A DNA stretch of 64,000 nt from Actinocorallia sp. API 0066 (GTDB taxonomy: Bacteria > Actinomycetota > Actinomycetes > Streptosporangiales > Streptosporangiaceae): contig NZ_JAJLQY010000002.1 in the NCBI RefSeq assembly GCF_020991275.1, forward strand, positions 496,001 through 560,000, read 5' to 3'. Positions 24,316-52,057 of the stretch are shown here, piece after piece. Made by a program: the position numbers and the translations under genes. The notes beneath the pieces were generated by a model. It saw only the letters and a list, made by a program, of their open reading frames with translations, was not told the DNA's origin and searched no databases. How positions within the stretch are numbered: position 1 is the stretch's first letter; each line of letters begins with the position of its first letter.

Positions 24316-24942
24316 TCAGGCGCGCGGGAGGTGTTCGCCTTCGCGGAGCCGTTCCATGCCGAGCCAGACGAAGTCGAGCGCGGTGGACTCGGCCCGTTCG
24401 CGCGGCACCTCGGGGTGTTCCAGCCACCAGGAGATGAGCGAGAACAGCGACCCGTAGATCAGCGGGACGAGCAGTTGGGCGCGCCGCTCGTACTTGGCGA
24501 GCTCCTCCGGGGCGACGACCTTGCGCCGCCGGGAGAGCAGCCTCCCGGCGGCGGCCTCGCCGAACCTGTCGCGCAGTTCGCGCAGTTCCAGGCCGACCTC
24601 GGGCTTGTCGAGGTGCCGGATGATGACCGCCCACGCGTCGGGCTCGGCCGTCGCGTAGTCGAACAGCGTGCTGATCATGCCGCTGATCCGCTGGAGCGAG
24701 GTGGCGCCGCTGACGTCCACCGCCGCGAGCCGTCCGGTCAGGTCGTCGATGATGGTCTGCGCGACCTCGGCGAACAGCTGTTCCTTGGACTCGAAGTGCT
24801 GGTACAGCAGGGCCTTCGACACGCCCGCCGCCGCCGCGACGTGTTCCATCTGGGTGAGGTGGAAGCCGCGCCTGCCGAACTCGGTCAGCGCGACCCCCAT
24901 CAGCTGCTCCCGCCGGATGGCGGCGGACAGTCTTCTGGCCAT
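24316..24942 (-). CDS. TetR family transcriptional regulator
   Basis: 208 residues. The N-terminal helix-turn-helix domain is typical: RREQLMGVALTEFGRRGFHL then VAAAAGVSKALLYQHFESKE. The C-terminal ligand domain (LTGRLAAVDVSGATSLQRIS onward) has no recognisable ligand signature. The start lies 4 bp after the acyl-CoA dehydrogenase stop, so the two form an operon. A perfect 20-bp palindrome in the promoter region between the dehydrogenase and the divergent SDR gene is the likely binding site. The regulator then controls both arms, probably in response to an acyl-CoA or related lipid. This is inference from context. Confidence 0.92.
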   Translation of the reverse strand: MARRLSAAIRREQLMGVALTEFGRRGFHLTQMEHVAAAAGVSKALLYQHFESKEQLFAEVAQTIIDDLTGRLAAVDVSGATSLQRISGMISTLFDYATAEPDAWAVIIRHLDKPEVGLELRELRDRFGEAAAGRLLSRRRKVVAPEELAKYERRAQLLVPLIYGSLFSLISWWLEHPEVPRERAESTALDFVWLGMERLREGEHLPRA

Positions 24943-27990: not shown

Positions 27991-28032
27991 TGGCTCCACA
28001 CTGGAGTCTTGTCCCGCTATCCAGCTATGCCG

Positions 28033-28689
28033 TTATCCAGCTATTCCGTTCTCGTAGGCGAAGACGACGGCTTGGGTGCGGTCGCGGAGGCCGAGTTTGG
28101 TGAGGACGTGGCCCACGTGGGTCTTGACGGTCTGTTCGGCGAGGAAGAGTTCGGTGGCGATCTCGGCGTTGGACATGCCGCGTGAGATGAGGCGGAGCAC
28201 GTCGAGCTCGCGCGGGGTGAGGCCGTCGGCGGCGTCGGTGCGGGGGCGCTCGTGGCGGCGGCGGCGCGCGAAGTCCTGGATGAGGCGGCGGGTCACGGAC
28301 GGCGCGAGCAGCGCGTCCCCTGAGGCGACGACCTTCACCGCGTGGATGAGGTCCTGCGCGGACGCGTCCTTCAGCAGGAACCCGCTGGCACCGGCCCCGA
28401 GCGCCTCGTAGACGTACTCGTCAAGGTCGAACGTGGTGAGGATGAGGACACGAGGCCCGGTGTCGGAGGCGATCCGCGCGGTGGCGGCCAGGCCGTCCAT
28501 GCCGGGCATCCTGACGTCCATCACCACAACGTCGGGATCGAGCCGCCCGCACAGCGCGATCGCCTCGGCGCCGTCCCCCGCCTGCCCGACGACGGAGATG
28601 AGCGGGTCCGAGTCCAGGAGGGTGGCGAGACCGTCCCGGATCATCACCTGGTCGTCAGCGATCACCACCCGGATCATGTGCGCCATCAT
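28033..28689 (-). CDS. NarL/LuxR family response regulator
   Basis: 218 residues. Receiver domain: acidic pair in VIADDQVMIRDGL, phosphoacceptor Asp in DPDVVVMDVRMPGMDG, Thr in ILTTFD and Lys in GFLLKDASAQDL. The C-terminal LuxR helix-turn-helix is LTPRELDVLRLISRGMSNAE with LFLAEQTVKTHVGHVLTKLG. ATG 28689 has GGAG 7 bases upstream; a second ATG at 28677 is in frame. It overlaps the 3' end of the kinase gene by 35 bp, so the two are co-translated. It should be phosphorylated by that kinase and control an unknown regulon. Confidence 0.94.
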   Translation of the reverse strand: MMAHMIRVVIADDQVMIRDGLATLLDSDPLISVVGQAGDGAEAIALCGRLDPDVVVMDVRMPGMDGLAATARIASDTGPRVLILTTFDLDEYVYEALGAGASGFLLKDASAQDLIHAVKVVASGDALLAPSVTRRLIQDFARRRRHERPRTDAADGLTPRELDVLRLISRGMSNAEIATELFLAEQTVKTHVGHVLTKLGLRDRTQAVVFAYENGIAG

Positions 28690-29908
28690 AGGGAAGCTCC
28701 GCCAATACCGCCCAACCCCCGGCGGATTGGCATCCGGCGGACATCTTGCCGCCGAGCATCGCGACCCGCTCGCCCATCCCGATGAGCCCGTGCCCTCCGT
28801 TGGGCGGCTGCGGCGCGTCCTTGGGGCCGTCGTCCGTCACCGACAGAAGCAGCCCGTTCCGCTTGTAGGCCACCGCTACCTCCACCGACGAGCCCGGCGC
28901 GTACCGCGCTGCGTTGCTGAGCGCCTCCTGGACGATCCGGTACGCGGACAGGTCGACGCCTTCCGGCAGCGTGCGCCGCTCCCCGGTGACGGCCAGGGTG
29001 ATCCGCAGCCCGTCGTGCGCGTCGAGGAGCTCGCCGATCCGGTCCATGCCGGGCTGCGGCTTGCGTTCGGCGGCCTCGTCCCCGGCCCGCAGCAGCCCGA
29101 CGACGCGCCGGGTCTCGGTGAGCGCGGCGCGCGCCTCCTCCCGCAGCAGCGCGAACGTCTGGAGCGCGGGTTCGGGCAGGTCGGGGATCTTGTAGGGCGC
29201 GGCCTCGGCCTGGAGCGCGATCACCGACATGTGGTGCGCGACGACGTCGTGCAGCTCCCTGGCGATCCGCGACCGCTCGGCGAGCACCGCGTGCCGGGCG
29301 AGGTCCCGCTGGTGCCGCTCGGCCTGGACGGCGAGCCGCAGTTCGGCCAGGTACCGCCCGCCGACCGCGTCACCGAAGACGAGCGCCAGCCCTACCAACC
29401 CGATGAGGATGGACCCGAACCACGGCTCCATCCGGCCGAGCGCGACGGGCAGGCACACCAGCACGGCGACGGTCACCGCACCGGCGCCCAGCGACTTGCG
29501 CCGCTCCGATCCGGCGGCCAGCGAGAACATGACGACGAGCACGGCGAGCAGCGACGTCACCGGCCACGGCAGGAACGGGTGCCCCGCCACGGGCGTCAGG
29601 GCGCCCCACGCCAGCCCCGCCAGCGACACCTTCCACGCGGGCATGGGCCAGCGCGGCGCGAACAGCACGGGCAGGCACTGGAGGACGCCGAGCGCCCACG
29701 CCCGGTCGAGGGACACCTCGTAAGCGACGGCGTGGATGGCGATCGACCCGGCGGTGAACCCCACGGCCAGGGTGAACGCCGACGCGGCGATCGCGGTGCG
29801 GGGGAGTGCGCGGTCGGGCCAGCAGGTGGCCCGGTCGGGCCGGGAGGGGGCGCGGATCGCGGCATTGATCGCGCCCAGGGCGCTGCCGAGCGCCCGGTAC
29901 ACGCTCAT
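28655..29908 (-). CDS. Sensor histidine kinase (HisKA_3 type)
   Basis: 417 residues from ATG 29906-29908. About five or six membrane segments fill the first half (for example AIAASAFTLAVGFTAGSIAIHAVAY), with no large extracellular sensor domain, so the signal is probably sensed in or at the membrane. The dimerisation/phosphoacceptor motif is AERSRIARELHDVVAHHMSV with the phosphorylated His in ELHD. The ATPase domain shows RIVQEALSNAARYAPGS (N box), VTDDGPKDAP and GGHGLIGMGERVAMLGG (G box). This layout is that of DesK/NarX-type actinobacterial kinases, paired with the overlapping response regulator. Confidence 0.94.
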   Translation of the reverse strand: MSVYRALGSALGAINAAIRAPSRPDRATCWPDRALPRTAIAASAFTLAVGFTAGSIAIHAVAYEVSLDRAWALGVLQCLPVLFAPRWPMPAWKVSLAGLAWGALTPVAGHPFLPWPVTSLLAVLVVMFSLAAGSERRKSLGAGAVTVAVLVCLPVALGRMEPWFGSILIGLVGLALVFGDAVGGRYLAELRLAVQAERHQRDLARHAVLAERSRIARELHDVVAHHMSVIALQAEAAPYKIPDLPEPALQTFALLREEARAALTETRRVVGLLRAGDEAAERKPQPGMDRIGELLDAHDGLRITLAVTGERRTLPEGVDLSAYRIVQEALSNAARYAPGSSVEVAVAYKRNGLLLSVTDDGPKDAPQPPNGGHGLIGMGERVAMLGGKMSAGCQSAGGWAVLAELPYDGAHDPGGDR

Positions 29909-30004
29909 GGCCTTGAGGGTAGGGGTCCGGTTCCGCCCTGTCTTGCCCCTCCGGGGTGATCCGTCCACCGGAACCGGAGTATGAGATCAATCTCCTAACT
30001 CGAG

Positions 30005-30029
30005 ATTTCCGATTGACTAGATAGGAATT
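30005..30029 (+). promoter_or_regulatory. candidate sulfur-responsive promoter/operator dyad (cysteine dioxygenase)
   Basis: The 25 bases read ATTTCCGATTGACT then AGATAGGAATT. They match the dyad upstream of the Tat sulfatase at 22 of 25 positions, including TTGACT and the CC-n-AT...ATAGG half-sites. It lies about 20 bp before the chosen start codon. The shared site implies joint control of two sulfur-metabolism transcription units. Confidence 0.6.
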
Positions 30030-30048
30030 GCGGGCCAAGATGGTCGCC

Positions 30049-30504
30049 ATGACGTTGACCAGCAACGATGCCGGGACGACGACGCTCGCCGAGCGCGCCC
30101 GGCTCTTCGCCGAGACCAGTGACGAATGGCTGCACCGTGTGCGCCTCGACCCGCAGGGACGCTGGTACGAGCGCCTCGACGGGGACGAGGACTGTGAGGT
30201 GTGGATCATCAGCTGGCTCCCCGGCCAGAGCACCGGCTTCCACGACCACGGAGGCTCCGCGGGCGCCTTCGCCGTCGTGCTCGGCGAACTGGAGGAGGCC
30301 ACCACCCGCTCCGCCCAGATCTTCGACGGCGGCCGCGTCCGCCCCTTCGGCAGGCACCACATCCACGACGTGCGCAACACGTCGACGGCGCCGGCGGTCA
30401 GCGTCCACGTCTACTCGCCGCCGCTGTCCACCATGAACCGGTACGACCTGACGCCCGAGGGCGAACTGATCGTCCTCCAGACCGAGACGGCGGACGACTG
30501 GTGA
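30049..30504 (+). CDS. Cysteine dioxygenase (type I cupin)
   Basis: About 151 residues from ATG 30049; ATG 30040 is also in frame and would give a very short leader. The cupin core has the iron-ligand pattern GFHDHGGSAGAF (two His) and GRHHIHDVRN (third His), preceded by WIISWLPGQST. This matches bacterial cysteine dioxygenases, which convert cysteine to cysteine sulfinate in the cytoplasm. Its stop overlaps the rhodanese start (GTGA at 30501), so the two are translated together. A dyad shared with the exported sulfatase promoter lies just upstream, supporting a role in sulfur balance. Confidence 0.88.
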   Translation: MTLTSNDAGTTTLAERARLFAETSDEWLHRVRLDPQGRWYERLDGDEDCEVWIISWLPGQSTGFHDHGGSAGAFAVVLGELEEATTRSAQIFDGGRVRPFGRHHIHDVRNTSTAPAVSVHVYSPPLSTMNRYDLTPEGELIVLQTETADDW

Positions 30505-30941
30505 CCCGCCCCGCCGGAGCCCGCTCCGTCGACCAGATCCTCGACGACGCGCGCGCCCGCCTCGTCCGGCTGACGCCCGCGCAGGCGCACGCCGAGCCCG
30601 ACGCGCTCCTCATCGACATCAGGCCCGCCGCGCAGCGCGCCGCCGAGGGCGAGATCCCCGACGCGCTGATCATCGAGCGCAACGTCCTGGAATGGCGCCT
30701 CGACCCCGAGAGCGACGCCAGGATCCGCGAGGCGACCGGCTACGACGTCCGCGCCGTCGTCTTCTGTTCCGAGGGCTACACCTCCAGCCTCGCCGCCGCC
30801 GCGCTCCAGGACCTCGGTCTCGCCCGCGCCACCGACATCGACGGCGGCTTCGTCGCGTGGCGGGCCGCGAACCTGCCGACCGCCCGCACGGTCACCCCGC
30901 AGGCGCTGCCCGCCGACCCGGCCGTCCTGGGGCGTTCCTAG
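30501..30941 (+). CDS. Rhodanese-like domain protein
   Basis: 146 residues, start GTG 30501 overlapping the cysteine dioxygenase stop. A single rhodanese domain: DALLIDIRPAAQRAAEGEIP (helix A region), RNVLEWRLDPES, active-site loop VVFCSEGYTSSLAA with the catalytic Cys, and DIDGGFVAWRAANLP (the GG-x-x-AW motif). It transfers sulfane sulfur between acceptors. Coupling with cysteine dioxygenase suggests handling of sulfur released during cysteine breakdown. This pair is common in actinobacteria. Confidence 0.92.
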   Translation: MTRPAGARSVDQILDDARARLVRLTPAQAHAEPDALLIDIRPAAQRAAEGEIPDALIIERNVLEWRLDPESDARIREATGYDVRAVVFCSEGYTSSLAAAALQDLGLARATDIDGGFVAWRAANLPTARTVTPQALPADPAVLGRS

Positions 30942-30979
30942 CCGCCGGGAAATGCGGCGGCGCGGGGTGGGAAGGGCGC

Positions 30980-30985
30980 TAGACT
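30980..30985 (+). promoter_or_regulatory. -10 element of the thrS leader transcript
   Basis: TAGACT lies seven bases before the leader-peptide ATG at 30993, placing the predicted transcription start at or next to the A of that ATG. The leader peptide would then be translated from a leaderless transcript. No clear -35 element is visible. Confidence 0.55.
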
Positions 30986-30992
30986 GTCCGCC

Positions 30993-31079
30993 ATGGCAGT
31001 AGCGCACCGGCCCCGCTCGCGCAGGGAGCTGGAGACGACGACGCCGGGGCACTCCCGGCACTCGGAGCGCGCGCGCTGA
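30993..31079 (+). CDS. Predicted thrS leader peptide (three consecutive Thr codons)
   Basis: 28 residues: [14 protein letters not shown], then Thr-Thr-Thr (ACG codons at 31035-31043), then [11 protein letters not shown] and TGA. It lies immediately before a 15-bp perfect stem and the gene for threonyl-tRNA synthetase. The run of cognate codons, the position before competing hairpins and the promoter seven bases upstream fit a ribosome-stalling leader peptide that senses charged tRNA-Thr. The peptide itself need have no other function. This is inference from sequence. Confidence 0.65.
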
Positions 31080-31128
31080 CCTCCGAGACACCAGATGAGG
31101 CCCCGGGAGAACGCTCCCGGGGCCTCAT
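31043..31128 (+). promoter_or_regulatory. Candidate transcription attenuator of thrS
   Basis: Mutually exclusive pairings are visible. GCCGGG (31043-31048) pairs with CCCGGC (31054-31059). Alternatively CTCCCGG (31052-31058) pairs with CCGGGAG (31103-31109), which is part of the terminator's left arm. CTCGGAG (31061-31067) can pair with CTCCGAG (31081-31087). A ribosome stalled at the Thr codons (31035-31043) would cover GCCGGG, free CTCCCGG to pair downstream, and so block the terminator. This is the classic arrangement for amino-acid-dependent attenuation. Confidence 0.6.
31095..31128 (+). terminator. 15-bp perfect attenuator terminator stem before thrS
   Basis: ATGAGGCCCCGGGAG (31095-31109) and CTCCCGGGGCCTCAT (31114-31128) are perfectly complementary around the loop AACG. 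No long U-run follows (CGCTTCCCC), as is usual in high-GC actinobacteria. It lies between the leader peptide and thrS. Confidence 0.85.
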
Positions 31129-31165
31129 CGCTTCCCCAGACCTTCGCTGCGATCAAGGAGTTCCC

Positions 31166-33136
31166 GTGTCCGAACTGCGTGTCACCCTCGGCGGAGACGA
31201 GCGAGTGGTGGCCGCCGGCACCACGGCGGGCCGGGTGCTCGACGACGTCGGGCGCGGCGGTCCCAAGGTCGTCGCCGCCCGGGTCAACGGTGAGCTGCGC
31301 GACCTGGAGTACGCCGTCGCCGACGGGGACAAGATCGAGGGCGTCGAGATCGACTCCAAGGACGGCCGCGACATCCTGCGGCACTCCACCGCGCACGTGA
31401 TGGCCCAGGCCGTCCAGGAGATCTACCCGGACGCCAGGCTGGGCATCGGCCCGCCCGTCGAGAACGGCTTCTACTACGACTTCGACGTCGCCGAGCACTT
31501 CACCCCGGACGACCTGAAGAAGATCGAGCGCCGGATGCGTGAGATCGTCAAGCAGGGCCAGCGGTTCGAGCGCCGGGTCGTCTCCGACGCCGAGGCCCGC
31601 GCCGAACTCGCCGACGAGCCCTACAAGCTGGAGCTGATCGGCCTGAAGGGCGGCGGCGTCGAGGACGAGGAGTCGGTCGAGGTGGGCGGCGCGGAGCTGA
31701 CCATCTACGACAACATCGACGCCAAGACCGGCGACCTGTGCTGGAAGGACCTCTGCCGGGGCCCGCACCTGCCGACCACCCGGAACATCCCGGCGTTCAA
31801 GCTGATGCGCTCCGGCGGCGCGTACTGGCGCGGCAGCGAGAAGAACCCGCAGCTCCAGCGGATCTACGGCACCGCGTGGGAGTCCCGCGACAAGCAGGAC
31901 GAGTACCTGAAGCTGCTGGAGGAGGCCGAGAAGCGCGACCACCGCAAGCTGGGCGCCGAACTCGACCTGTTCTCCTTCCCGCCCGTCATCGGCTCCGGCC
32001 TACCGGTGTTCCACCCCAAGGGCGGCATCATCCGGCGCGAGCTGGAGAACTACTCGCGGATCCGGCACGAGCAGGCGGGCTACTCGTTCGTCAACACCCC
32101 GCACATCACCAAGGGCGGCCTGTACGAGACCTCGGGGCACCTCGGCTGGTACCGGGACGGCATGTTCCCGCCCATGGAGCTGGAGGGCGCCGAGTACTAC
32201 CTGAAGCCGATGAACTGCCCCATGCACAACCTGATCTTCGACGCGCGGGGCAGGTCGTACAAGGAGCTGCCGCTGCGGCTGTTCGAGTTCGGCACCGTCT
32301 ACCGGTACGAGAAGTCCGGCGTCGTGCACGGCCTCACCCGGGTGCGCGGCCTCACCCAGGACGACGCGCACATCTACTGCACCAGGGAGCAGATGCAGGA
32401 CGAGCTGCACTCTCTCCTGAAGTTCGTGCTTGACCTGCTGCGCGACTACGGCCTCGACGACTTCTACCTGGAGCTGTCCACCCGCGACCCGGAGAAGTCC
32501 GTCGGCTCGGACGAGGAGTGGGCGGAGGCGACCGAGATGCTGCGCGTCGCCGCCGAGAACTCCGGCCTCGCGCTGGTGCCCGACCCGGGCGGCGCGGCGT
32601 TCTACGGCCCGAAGATCTCGGTCCAGGCCCGCGACGCCATCGGCCGCACCTGGCAGATGTCCACCATCCAGGTGGACTTCCAGCTCCCGCGCCTGTTCAA
32701 CCTGGAGTACCAGGCGGCGGACGGCTCACGGCAGCGGCCGATCATGATCCACCGGGCGCTGTTCGGCTCGATCGAGCGGTTCTTCGGCGTCCTGCTGGAG
32801 CACTACGCGGGCGCGATGCCGCCGTGGCTGGCGCCGGTGCAGGTCGTCGGCATCCCGATCGCCGACGAGCACGTGCCGTACCTGGAGCAGGTCGTCGCGC
32901 GGCTCAGGGATCTCGGGGTGCGGGCCGAGGTGGACTCCTCCGGCGACCGGATGCAGAAGAAGATCCGCAACGCGCAGAAGCAGAAGATCCCCTTCATGCT
33001 GCTGGCCGGGGACGAGGACGTCGCCAAGGACGCGGTGTCGTTCCGGTACCGGTCGGGCGCGCAGAACAACGGGGTGCCCGTGGACGAGGCCGTCGCCGAG
33101 ATCCTCAAGGCGATCGCGGACCGCGTCCAGGTCTGA
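31166..33136 (+). CDS. thrS: Threonyl-tRNA synthetase
   Basis: 656 residues from GTG 31166 with AAGGAG upstream. Domains in order: TGS domain ([20 protein letters not shown]), second additional editing-type domain ([20 protein letters not shown]), class II catalytic core ([22 protein letters not shown] with the zinc Cys, [36 protein letters not shown]) and C-terminal anticodon-binding domain ([20 protein letters not shown]). It charges tRNA-Thr in the cytoplasm. Its leader holds a short frame with three Thr codons and a strong hairpin, suggesting attenuation. Synteny with HIT-pgsA-pimA genes downstream is conserved in actinobacteria. Confidence 0.97.
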
Positions 33137-33163
33137 CCCGTCGTGAGAGTTCCGTAATGGGAT

Positions 33164-33192
33164 CGGATCCGGGCGAAGATCGTCCGGATCCG
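33164..33192. promoter_or_regulatory. inverted repeat upstream of leaderless tetR
   Basis: CGGATCCGG (33164-33172) and CCGGATCCG (33184-33192) form a perfect 9-bp inverted repeat with an 11-base spacer, 24 bp before the regulator's start. A TACGAT -10 element lies at 33204-33209. The repeat could be an operator for autoregulation; it could also fold as a weak thrS terminator. Confidence 0.5.
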
Positions 33193-33215
33193 TCCCGGCT
33201 CGGTACGATGCGCGC

Positions 33216-33812
33216 GTGATGGGGACCACACGGCCGCGCACGCCGGCGCGGGAGAAGCTCTTGGACGCCGCCGGACGCCTCATCCTGACGTCGGGGTGGC
33301 AGCGCCTGCGCGTCTCGCACGTCGCCGCTGAGGCGGGCGTGAGCAGGCAGAGCGCCTACAACGAGTTCGGCTCCAAGGAGGCGCTCGGCGAGGCCCTGGT
33401 GATGCGCGAGTTCGAGCGGCACCTCGACGGGCTCACCGAGCCGCTCGTGGACCGGCGTGACGACGTGGGCGCGGCCGTCGAGGAGGCCGTGCTGTTCACG
33501 TTCCGGTCGGCGTCGGCGAACCCGGTGCTGAAGAGCCTGCTGACGAGCGCGCGGGCCGGGCTGCTGATGGGGGAGCTGGCCGAGGTCGTGCGCAACCGTG
33601 ACGTCCCGCCGCTGCCGCACGCGATCGCGGCGGTGTCCGCGCTGGTCGCCCGGCACCGGCCCGACCTGGACCAGGGCGACGTGAACCTGACCATCGACAT
33701 GGTGCTCCGGGTGACGGTCAGCTACCTCGTCACGCCCGAGGGGACGCACGAGGAGGCGGCCCGCCGGATCGCGATCATGGCGACCCGCGTCCTCGGTGTC
33801 CCGTTGCGGTAA
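33216..33812 (+). CDS. TetR family transcriptional regulator
   Basis: 198 residues from GTG 33216; the following codon is ATG. The helix-turn-helix domain is seen in AREKLLDAAGRLILTSGWQR and VSHVAAEAGVSRQSAYNEFG. The C-terminal domain starts around residue 60 and has no diagnostic ligand motif. The -10 element TACGAT ends seven bases before the GTG, so translation is probably leaderless. It follows thrS by 79 bp, and the operator-like inverted repeat before it suggests autoregulation. The target genes are unknown; the next gene is an exported or membrane protein of unknown function. Confidence 0.9.
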   Translation: MMGTTRPRTPAREKLLDAAGRLILTSGWQRLRVSHVAAEAGVSRQSAYNEFGSKEALGEALVMREFERHLDGLTEPLVDRRDDVGAAVEEAVLFTFRSASANPVLKSLLTSARAGLLMGELAEVVRNRDVPPLPHAIAAVSALVARHRPDLDQGDVNLTIDMVLRVTVSYLVTPEGTHEEAARRIAIMATRVLGVPLR

Positions 33813-33856
33813 TCTCCTTCCCTACCCCCCAGTAACAGGCATCAATGGGAGCACAC

Positions 33857-34348
33857 ATGTCGGAGACCCCCTTTCTCCACCGGGTCCTCCGCAAGTCCGG
33901 CTACGCGCTGACCGCGCTGCTGGTCATCGCCGCCGTCGGGGTCCTCGTCCTGCCGTTCCTGCCCGAGCCGGAGACGCCCGTGGCGGCCCCCGAGCCCCCG
34001 TCGGGCTCCACCGCGCCGTCGCCGCCGCCCGGGATCTTCCCCGACCTCTCCGGCGGCGGCCAGAGCACGCCGCCCCGGCAGCCGAAGGGCCCGTGCGGCA
34101 CCCAGAGGGCGTACTACGAGTTCGACGACGACGACCTCAAGGTGACCGTGGTCTTCCCCGGTGTGGGGGCCGTCCGCGCCGTCGTCGCGACCTCGGGCGA
34201 ACCGGCCATGCAGTCCTACACCACCGCCGGCGACCCGACGCCCCACACGTTCACGTTCCGCGACACGCCCAAGAAGAGCCTGAAGAAGGTCGGCCTGACC
34301 GTCACCACGGCCTCGGGCGCGCAGAACTGCGAGCTGGCCGCCCGTTAG
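33857..34348 (+). CDS. Membrane-anchored hypothetical protein
   Basis: 163 residues from ATG 33857 with GGGAG upstream; an ATG at 33845 is also in frame. One membrane segment (YALTALLVIAAVGVLVLPFLP) near the N-terminus is followed by a Pro/Ser-rich linker and a small extracytoplasmic domain with two cysteines (KGPCGTQRAYYEF and AQNCELAAR) that could form a disulfide. The domain has the look of MmpS-like or other small beta-sandwich proteins (DDLKVTVVFPGVGAVRAVVA). I do not assign a function. It lies between tetR and the minus-strand Asp23 gene. Confidence 0.7.
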   Translation: MSETPFLHRVLRKSGYALTALLVIAAVGVLVLPFLPEPETPVAAPEPPSGSTAPSPPPGIFPDLSGGGQSTPPRQPKGPCGTQRAYYEFDDDDLKVTVVFPGVGAVRAVVATSGEPAMQSYTTAGDPTPHTFTFRDTPKKSLKKVGLTVTTASGAQNCELAAR

Positions 34349-34394
34349 TTGACGGCCCGGAGCCGGGCGCGCGCCTTTGTGTCCGCCCGGTGGG

Positions 34395-35141
34395 TCAGGA
34401 GGCGGGGGACTGGCTGTCGGGCATCCGGACGTCCTCGATGGTGACGTTCACCGTGGCGACCCGCAGGCCGAGCATGAGGCCGACGATCCGTGCCACGTTG
34501 GTCTTGACGATGCGGGCGACGTCCATGACCACCGAGCCGTACTCGACGATGAGGGCGATGTCCACGCTGATCTCGTTGTCGAGGATGCGGGCGCGGACCC
34601 TCGGTTCACCCCGGTCGGTCATGCCGATGCGCTGGCGGACCGCCTCCATCGTCTCCGAGGTGCGGCTCTGCCCGCCCAGCGCGGCCACGCCGGTGACCTC
34701 AAGGGCGGCCAGGGCGGCGATCTTCTCGACGACCTCGTCCTCGATCTTGATCTGGCCCTGGACGGCGGAGCGGGAGTCCTCCGGCGGGGCCGGGGCCACC
34801 GGAGGCGGGGGAGGCGTGGGCTCGGGCTGGTAGGGCTCCGGCTGGTAGGACGACTCGGCGGGCGGCTGTTCCGGCTGGTAGGTGGGCTGCGGCGCGTAGG
34901 TCGGCTCGGGGATGCCCGCGTAGGACTCGGCGAAGGGGTCGGTGGCGCGGCGACGGCCGGTGGAGGCGAACTCGGCGGGCGGCTGGGCGGCCGCCGGGGG
35001 CAGCACGGAGCCGGGGCCCGACGGCGGGGCCGCCGGGGGCGCGGACGGCGCGGGGCCGCCGGACGGGCCGGGGAAGTAGGGCATGGGCGGACGGCCCTCA
35101 GCGCGGTGCTCGGCGCCGTAGGTGCGGTCGAGATCGGTCAT
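34395..35141 (-). CDS. Asp23/Gls24 family envelope stress response protein
   Basis: 248 residues from ATG 35139-35141, with GAGGAG upstream. A long Pro-rich, Tyr/Gln-containing N-terminal region of about 130 residues (YQPEQPPAESSYQPEPYQPE) precedes a single Asp23 domain (IKIEDEVVEKIAALAALEVT, NEISVDIALIVEYGSVVMDV, NVTIEDVRMPDS). In firmicutes such proteins lie under the membrane and respond to envelope stress; actinobacteria have several copies. No membrane segment is seen here, so the protein should be cytoplasmic or recruited to the membrane by partners. Confidence 0.88.
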   Translation of the reverse strand: MTDLDRTYGAEHRAEGRPPMPYFPGPSGGPAPSAPPAAPPSGPGSVLPPAAAQPPAEFASTGRRRATDPFAESYAGIPEPTYAPQPTYQPEQPPAESSYQPEPYQPEPTPPPPPVAPAPPEDSRSAVQGQIKIEDEVVEKIAALAALEVTGVAALGGQSRTSETMEAVRQRIGMTDRGEPRVRARILDNEISVDIALIVEYGSVVMDVARIVKTNVARIVGLMLGLRVATVNVTIEDVRMPDSQSPAS

Positions 35142-35275
35142 CCGGAGGGTCTCCTCACCTGGCCTGCCCAACGAGCCACCCCCGACGGGGACGCGCGGTC
35201 ACCCATCATGGCGGAGAGGACACAACACCTGCCAGCGAAGCCGATATTCGTGATGAATTGGTGCTAAACGGTATG

Positions 35276-35298
35276 CGGGCCTATCGAACACAGCCTGG
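35276..35298 (-). repeat. partial match to the left end of the palindromic family
   Basis: On the minus strand CTGTGTTCGATAGGCCCGC closely resembles the left end CTGTGTTTGATTGGCCCGG of copy 2. No matching GC-rich arms follow, so it may be a decayed or truncated copy. It lies between the Asp23 and HIT gene starts. Confidence 0.4.
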
Positions 35299-35354
35299 TT
35301 TCCGCCGGGGAAGCGGGCGCGCCTAAGCTGGGTTGGCCTAGGAAAGGGGTTGCG

Positions 35355-35912
35355 GTGGCACACGAGCCCTCTGAGATGGAGGAACAGGCGGGCGTCGGCT
35401 CGCCGGACGGCTTCCAGCGGCTGTGGACGCCGCACCGGATGGCCTACATCAAGGGCGAGAACAAGCCGACCGGGCCCGGCGCGGCCGACGGCTGCCCGTT
35501 CTGCGAGATCCCCCGGGGCCTCGACGAGGAGGGCCTCGTCGTGCGCAGGGGCGAGCGCGTGTACGCGGTCCTCAACCTGTACCCCTACACCTCGGGGCAC
35601 CTGCTCATCTGCCCCTACCGCCACGTCGCGGACTACACCGAGCTGGACGACGCCGAGGCGCTGGAGTTCGCGCGGTTCACCCAGGCCGGGCTGACCGCGC
35701 TGCGCCGTGGCACCGGCGCGCAGGGCGCGAACGTCGGCATGAACCTGGGCCTGGTGGCGGGCGCGGGCATCGCCGCGCACCTGCACCAGCACATCGTGCC
35801 GCGCTGGGGCGGCGACACCAACTTCATGCCGGTCGTCGGGCAGACCAAGGTGATGCCGCAGCTTCTGCGCGACACCCGCAAGGTGCTCGCGGAGTCCTGG
35901 CCGGACGCCTGA
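35355..35912 (+). CDS. HIT domain hydrolase/phosphorylase (Ap4A-phosphorylase-like)
   Basis: 185 residues from GTG 35355, with AGGAAAGGGG upstream and a TAAGCT -10 element at 35324. The HIT motif is HLHQHIVPRW, the zinc-type motif DGCPFCEIPR lies near residue 45, and the second conserved part is LYPYTSGHLLICPYRH. It corresponds by position and features to Rv2613c of M. tuberculosis, a diadenosine tetraphosphate phosphorylase. It acts on dinucleoside polyphosphates in the cytoplasm. In most actinobacteria it directly precedes pgsA; here a DUF393 gene and an EF-G-like gene lie between. Confidence 0.9.
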   Translation: MAHEPSEMEEQAGVGSPDGFQRLWTPHRMAYIKGENKPTGPGAADGCPFCEIPRGLDEEGLVVRRGERVYAVLNLYPYTSGHLLICPYRHVADYTELDDAEALEFARFTQAGLTALRRGTGAQGANVGMNLGLVAGAGIAAHLHQHIVPRWGGDTNFMPVVGQTKVMPQLLRDTRKVLAESWPDA

Positions 35913-35967
35913 CCGGCTCCGGCCCGCCCGTGGCGTCCGGGCCCCGCGCGCCCCGCCCGACGCCCGC

Positions 35968-36345
35968 TCAGGCCGCCTCACGCGGCGGCAGCGCGCACGC
36001 GGCGGTGCCGCCCGGCAGCCGGTACCGGTAGCGCGCCACGAGCCGGTACGCGGCGTGCGCGGCCCAGCTCAGCGGCGGCACGGCCAGCAGCACGCCGAGC
36101 GGCCGCCATCCGGGCCGTCCGGCCCGCAGCGCGGCGGCGACGGCCCGAGCCCCGCCGAGCACCCGCCCATCCCGCCGCACCCAGAGCACCTCGTGCGCGG
36201 CGCGCTCGGCGGTGACGCCCAGCGCCGCGAGGTCCCGGCCCTGGAAGGGCGCGATGTCGGCGTCGGGCCGGACCCGGCGTTCGGCGAACCGGACGCAGGT
36301 CGAGCAGAACCCGCAGTCTCCGTCGTAGATCAGCACATCGCGCAC
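35968..36345 (-). CDS. DUF393 thiol-disulfide oxidoreductase-like protein
   Basis: 125 residues. The family hallmark DGDCGFCSTCVRF near residues 9-21 carries a CxxC redox pair in a thioredoxin-like fold, followed by WVRRDGRVLGGARAVAAALRA. DUF393 proteins (DCC family) are small putative thiol-disulfide oxidoreductases with unknown partners. One hydrophobic stretch near residues 82-97 may contact the membrane. It follows the EF-G-like gene on the same strand, with 57 bp between. The ATG at 36343-36345 is the only sensible start. Confidence 0.88.
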   Translation of the reverse strand: MRDVLIYDGDCGFCSTCVRFAERRVRPDADIAPFQGRDLAALGVTAERAAHEVLWVRRDGRVLGGARAVAAALRAGRPGWRPLGVLLAVPPLSWAAHAAYRLVARYRYRLPGGTAACALPPREAA

Positions 36346-52007: not shown

Positions 52008-52057
52008 GATGTGCATGACCGGGTCGGACAGACCCGGTCATGCACATCTCTTTTGTC
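52008..52057 (+). terminator. Rho-independent terminator after secF
   Basis: GATGTGCATGACCGGGTC (52008-52025) pairs perfectly over 18 bp with GACCCGGTCATGCACATC (52031-52048) around the loop GGACA, followed by TCTTTTGT. It separates secDF from apt. Confidence 0.93.

Follow-up and report, generated by a model that had tools for sequence, protein, structure and literature searches.

What controls thrS, the housekeeping threonyl-tRNA synthetase gene of Actinocorallia sp. API 0066? In the 64,000-nt stretch of this genome that we analyzed (the window), thrS is preceded by a short frame with a run of threonine codons and by a long hairpin. The original prediction read the two as a ribosome-mediated attenuator. 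We conclude that the element is a real attenuator-type leader, and very probably a ribosome-mediated attenuator of the housekeeping synthetase gene.

The features of the locus are collected in Table 1. The genes 5' of the leader encode a cysteine dioxygenase and a rhodanese and both point towards thrS, whose product has tRNA_SAD, catalytic and anticodon-binding domains (Pfam). The predicted parts are present in the sequence: TAGACT stands 7 nt before the ATG at 30993 of a 28-codon frame, three consecutive ACG codons lie at 31035-31043, and there are two mutually exclusive pairings, GCCGGG (31043-31048) with CCCGGC (31054-31059) and CTCCCGG (31052-31058) with its complement CCGGGAG (31103-31109). 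The hairpin at 31094-31129 reads GATGAGGCCCCGGGAG-AACG-CTCCCGGGGCCTCATC; its stem is perfect, as claimed, and has 16 bp instead of the predicted 15. Two more long perfect hairpins occur in the window, at 52008-52048 (18 bp) and 24524-24553 (12 bp).

Table 1. The thrS leader and adjoining features (window coordinates)
Feature	Position	Strand	Basis
TAGACT, -10 element (TANNNT), candidate leader promoter	30980..30985	+	sequence; box spacing in 60 leaders
Leader frame, 28 codons + TGA, probably leaderless	30993..31079	+	core conserved in nine genera
Three ACG (Thr) codons, proposed sensor	31035..31043	+	176/180 codons Thr, 171 ACG (60 leaders)
Region 1, CGCCGGG, partner of region 2	31042..31048	+	each of seven positions paired in 57-60/60 leaders
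Region 2, CTCCCGG, alternative partner of regions 1 and 3	31052..31058	+	pair counts, folds
Small hairpin CTCGGAG/CTCCGAG around leader stop codon, nested within antiterminator	31062..31087	+	fold of 31049-31109
Region 3, CCGGGAG, left arm of terminator hairpin; antiterminator partner of region 2	31103..31109	+	folds
Terminator-like hairpin 3:4, 16 bp, loop AACG, without U-run	31094..31129	+	fold z -7.7; stem of at least 11 pairs in 60/60 leaders
AAGGAG, thrS ribosome-binding site	31155..31160	+	sequence
thrS, full-length threonyl-tRNA synthetase, 656 aa, GTG start	31166..33136	+	frame; Pfam domains

Several tests used the window or its genome. Over both strands of the window, the leader frame is the sole frame of 8-45 codons with a TANNNT box 6-7 nt before its ATG or GTG, and the - strand has none. 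Copies of the + strand resampled by dinucleotides held 1.43 such frames each on average, and none of 100 copies had one with three threonines in a row. For the hairpin, the folding energy is -35.9 kcal/mol (z -7.7). The core pattern ACGACGACGCCGG..CCCGGC has a single match in the 7.0-Mb genome, at this leader, and its reversed control has 0. It occurs in 209 of 341 family genomes against 8 reversed-control matches in all; the pattern matches listed include leaders of a second synthetase gene, thrS2 (described below), and some chance matches. Other results count against the leader. For the window sequence alone the 2:3 fold is not unusual: it reaches z -1.1, and 27 of 200 shuffles are equally good. 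No sigma-70 consensus promoter was found within 30900-31200; no U-run follows the hairpin, and a consensus scan gave no terminator-like site there. A T-box or other Rfam leader was considered and rejected: covariance models run over 28000-36000 at E up to 1 gave no match to one, and the scan's two chance-level matches both lie on the - strand inside thrS. It is comparative evidence that carries the case for the predicted leader.

We compared 194 thrS upstream regions, drawn from sets of 30, 80 (named), 24 and 60; the last 60 come from the best-scoring matches listed, which over-represents close relatives, and a few organisms are included twice. A uniform scan found the leader in 61 of the 194 regions. 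One of these, L032 (Actinomadura rudentiformis), has the same peptide as L162 and was not counted again, and L294 was added through the core-pattern search, giving 61 leader-bearing genomes. Among the genomes examined, presence is all-or-none within a genus: the leader precedes thrS in every genome of nine genera, with 43/43 in g71, 6/6 in g39, 3/3 in g1, 3/3 in g78, 2/2 in g42 and 1/1 each in g2, g20, g40 and g41. Conservation of the Thr run and the stems in relatives had been set beforehand as a test of the prediction, and it was found in every genome examined from these nine genera. Absence is weak evidence for L055 and L149, with thrS regions shorter than 300 nt. The leader of L157, in which the middle Thr codon is GCG, was read by eye and then found by a looser scan. 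By reading, 20 extra core-pattern loci comprise one thrS leader (L294), eight thrS2 leaders (L297-L303, L307) and eleven that look like chance. In a quick thrS tree of 60 proteins with 11 leader rows, g71 being represented by L032, the leader needs one change (support 72). In genus g6, a GTG-started frame with GTTPG lies 5' of thrS in L007, with no -10 box at leaderless distance; it is either chance or a decayed leader.

Sixty leaders (L294 left out), with 59 distinct leader-to-gene sequences, were compared in detail. The Thr run precedes Pro in all 60, with three of three codons Thr in 56 and two of three in 4. Over the three positions before Pro, 176 of 180 codons are Thr, and 171 of these are ACG. 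The Thr codons of five thrS genes are 108 ACC and 6 ACG (n=114), and those of the window's long coding-like frames are 425 ACC and 224 ACG. ACG is near-exclusive in the leaders of both thrS and thrS2, although thrS genes use ACC. This bias may reflect isoacceptor choice or a constraint on the RNA; because the Thr codons show little synonymous drift (171/180 ACG), codon and RNA selection are inseparable there.

The stop codon follows the Pro codon at 33 nt in 59 of the 60 leaders, whereas the start-to-Pro distance ranges from 27 to 69 nt. Such a constant Pro-to-stop distance would be expected if region 2 has to be covered by a ribosome that has reached the stop codon. The TANNNT box ends 6 nt (45 leaders) or 7 nt (15) before the leader start; the scans required a box (one scan accepted it at up to 15 nt), so its presence is partly by construction, but the narrow spacing is not. 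The -10 box would place a leaderless transcript start at about 30992/30993.

We then have the stems. Alignment A1, which holds 58 distinct sequences of the 59, has a one-base shift in the right arm of six rows; we therefore counted pairs with scripts anchored on the arms. The 1:2 stem is paired in 57-60 of 60 leaders at every one of its seven positions, nearly all unchanged; two leaders have a G-C to A-T change on both sides. The neighbouring positions 5:9 (12/60 paired, permuted mean 15.1) and -3:17 (3/60) pair no more often than chance. When region 1 is masked and region 4 is still absent, 2:3 pairs in 59/59 folded leaders, with 5 or more pairs in 55/59 and a mean of 5.8 (letter shuffles, 1.1). 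In 20/60 leaders CGG is preceded by the codon CCC, and these mostly have only 5 pairs in 2:3, a point against the attenuator reading. Full-length folds are dominated by 1:2 and 3:4 (mean probability 0.97 and 0.99). The original prediction had proposed computing the competing folds; in computation, 2:3 and 3:4 are mutually exclusive in 59/59 leaders.

A hairpin of 11-19 pairs (G-U allowed) lies 6-26 nt after the leader stop in 60/60 leaders; in L139 the hairpin routine chose a longer alternative inverted repeat. Watson-Crick-only stems of at least 11 pairs occur at 56/60 leader loci versus 3/113 leaderless thrS loci, a comparison in which the scanned stretches differ between the two groups. The arm-anchored counts cover 59 of the 60 leaders, L206 falling outside them with a right arm that reads TTCCGG. 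All nine inner hairpin pairs are formed in 59/59 anchored leaders. At outer stem positions 9-12 of 36 distinct arm pairs, 121 of 144 cells are paired versus 87.5 after permutation of the right-arm letters (sd 4.0, maximum 102 in 2000; relatedness is ignored), and sliding the arm by 1 to 3 leaves 56-77 of 144 paired. The outer hairpin stem covaries and is under selection.

The conserved anatomy, the geometry, the covarying stem and the exclusive folds support the predicted reading of the element as a ribosome-mediated attenuator of thrS, and from them we infer translation, stalling, termination and a threonine response. The transcript would start leaderless at about 30992/30993. With Thr-tRNA plentiful, a ribosome would pass ACG ACG ACG to the stop codon and cover region 2, the 3:4 hairpin would form and transcription would end. 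With Thr-tRNA short, the ribosome would stall on the Thr codons and cover region 1; 2:3 would then pair before region 4 is made and block the hairpin, and thrS would be transcribed. The default state is expected to be off, since without translation 1:2 leaves 3:4 free. In Escherichia coli thrL, threonine codons likewise govern transcription through attenuation; unlike the leader proposed here, thrL controls biosynthesis genes and also senses isoleucine.

Judged by the parts of a classical attenuator, a cognate-codon run in a short leader frame is found in 60/60 leaders and mutually exclusive antiterminator and terminator folds are computed in 59/59 folded leaders; of an intrinsic terminator with U-run, the hairpin is present and the U-run is not. 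Termination is therefore the weakest link of the mechanism. The missing U-run lowers the claim of intrinsic termination, not that of attenuator-like working.

Translation-dependent Rho termination, polymerase pausing or RNA decay at the hairpin could take the place of intrinsic termination and leave threonine sensing unchanged. With no U-run after the hairpin and 0-3 T in the first 8 nt in 51/60 leaders, such an outcome deserves consideration, though we think it unlikely. According to the accessible part of one study, intrinsic terminators of Streptomyces carry 3-4 U within 10 nt and have exceptionally long and stable hairpins; the study also discusses Rho or processing, which may be more prominent there (PMC12207403). 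Rho alone, however, needs neither selection on the outer hairpin stem nor a 2:3 pairing that competes exactly with 3:4.

Similar leaders precede thrS2, which encodes a short threonyl-tRNA synthetase (410 aa in the query) with catalytic and anticodon-binding domains only, without tRNA_SAD. At E 1e-150 or better, thrS2 is present in 124 of 341 family genomes and, among these 341, in none of the nine leader-bearing genera; many genomes have neither a thrS leader nor thrS2. A leader on thrS and absence of thrS2 thus coincide, perhaps through a single event. A leaderless TTTP leader precedes thrS2 in 30/30 best loci, mostly M[KQM]RA..TTTPE[ST]VPAR. Ten earlier thrS2 loci have the leader, nine by scan and the tenth, L127 (STRTPD), by eye. 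The 22 thrS2 loci of named genomes, which overlap the other thrS2 sets in part, have TTTP in 19, TTTS in Kribbella, TTAP in one and none by that scan in one. At L298, L299, L301, L302 and L307, an intact leader and hairpin stand before a thrS2 that looks broken or shortened.

Many leaders of both genes share the arm RNA TCCCGGCGCG. Before thrS its codons are TCC-CGG-CGC; before thrS2 the frame is one nucleotide off and they are GTC-CCG-GCG-CGC. The arm is thus conserved as RNA across both leader types, whereas the Thr run is conserved in frame. The two leader types are apparently related, with shared ancestry as a candidate explanation.

At thrS2 loci (e.g. L121-L130, L223-L274), the terminator loop GCGAGTG is complementary to CACTCGC before the ribosome-binding site. 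Scored at the best site in about 67 nt, all 7 positions pair in 41/50 loci and 9/50 have a mismatch. Some loci have two-sided changes (GCAAGTG/CACTTGC, GCGAACG/CGTTCGC, GCGAGCG/CGCTCGC), and pairing with a locus's own or a foreign partner differs little (9.04 vs 8.78). No such loop-to-downstream pairing was seen in the window (best match 6 nt); a match of 8 nt is reached in 21/59 thrS leaders versus 3.6% of shuffles. We offer one broader scenario tentatively: a single threonine attenuator module may have served both thrS2 (in many Actinomycetes) and the sole housekeeping thrS (in an Actinomadura-type clade without thrS2), hearing almost only ACG and hence a subset of tRNA-Thr, and the thrS2 terminator loop would pair with a fifth segment before the ribosome-binding site as a possible second check, on translation.

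In Streptomyces coelicolor, thrS2 belongs to the antibiotic-induced WblC regulon, according to the accessible part of PMC7157823. In 7/53 thrS2 leader loci GAAAWY, the WblC box, begins 33 nt ahead of the -10 box, and a four-A/T run stands at 32 nt before it in 17/53. None of the 60 thrS leaders has GAAAWY within 60 nt before the -10 box; among the A/T runs of four before thrS leaders, 21 of 24 fall 28-34 nt upstream, and the window has AAAT at 30. Control by WblC may be superimposed on threonine attenuation.

The regulon membership of thrS2 (PMC7157823) would also suit a conserved peptide that acts as an arrest peptide or antibiotic sensor, not as a sensor of Thr-tRNA, and so would the conserved stretch that follows the Thr run (of 59 counted, P 59, G 57, R 58 and R 56). 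We consider this improbable: the 1:2 stem accounts for the conserved residues, thrS2 leaders read the same RNA in another frame as other residues, and the remainder of the peptide is variable among leaders. That the hairpin merely terminates the cysteine dioxygenase and rhodanese genes, which do point towards thrS, and that the short frame is chance, is scarcely credible, as about 150 nt separate the rhodanese stop from the hairpin, whose distance from the leader is nearly constant, leader and hairpin are retained together in 60 leaders, the upstream coding sequence of L157 looks different, and the leader-plus-hairpin unit also precedes thrS2 elsewhere.

The gap between hairpin and thrS holds a TANNNT element in 51 of 60 relatives compared; the window's own gap (31130-31165) has no TANNNT. 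A conserved TCGATAGCATC-like element, with TANNNT in a short inverted repeat, lies in this gap in L004, L013 and L137-L209 and is absent in the window's genus (L001-L003) and six other genera. It may be an internal promoter through which transcription skips the attenuator, or a site for a protein. A longer synthetase starting at an upstream in-frame ATG with a Shine-Dalgarno sequence was dropped as a candidate, being found at only 5/59 loci in a simple scan.

The attenuator that we prefer for thrS is of a known kind. The original prediction knew of no such attenuator for an actinobacterial thrS and allowed that one may be known; a threonine leader has been published for Streptomyces lividans, so the kind itself is not new. 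As far as the available text of that report goes, RNA-seq of strain TK24 revealed a leaderless threonine leader peptide before thrS, with one hairpin and no U-run (PMC8079986). In the open-licence literature searched, it is the only paper, in the parts accessible, that names a threonine leader peptide before thrS. The window has the same features, namely a probably leaderless leader (from the -10 spacing), a Thr run followed by Pro-Gly (LETTPG in S. lividans), a hairpin with no U-run and a position before a threonyl-tRNA synthetase gene, but three Thr where the S. lividans thrL has two (PMC8079986, same text). In that text the S. lividans leader comes with neither comparative nor structural analysis. 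The S. lividans peptide MKRVRPFLETTPGFVPAR (MKR...VPAR) resembles thrS2 leaders, and its thrL probably serves the second synthetase gene, judging by the published peptide. The window leader's target is the full-length thrS, whereas leaders like the S. lividans peptide precede thrS2.

Other actinobacterial attenuators are more distant. The accessible portion of PMC1262725 describes trpS and leuS attenuators in some Streptomyces and, for threonine operons, reports that no conserved regulatory RNA structure was found upstream; like the window's element, these are leader-peptide attenuators of tRNA synthetase genes, for other amino acids. The Mycobacterium tuberculosis ilvB1 leader, as presented in the accessible part of PMC13236596, is likewise a uORF attenuator from an actinobacterium in which terminator and antiterminator exclude each other, but its codons are for branched-chain amino acids, it has a U-tract, and experiments support it.

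Within the searched literature, four points are new: in one clade it is the housekeeping thrS that the leader serves; thrS2 is absent from every leader-bearing genus, and the tree allows a single switch; the leader Thr codons are almost only ACG; and the reading frame of the arm RNA differs by one nucleotide between thrS and thrS2 leaders. The element offers a candidate codon-specific sensor of Thr-tRNA for an essential enzyme in a large antibiotic-producing group. It also provides a natural comparison, with related control elements on the housekeeping enzyme in one clade and on the spare enzyme in others. Near-exclusive ACG leaders in genomes with ACC-using thrS genes make the theory of isoacceptor-sensitive codons directly testable.
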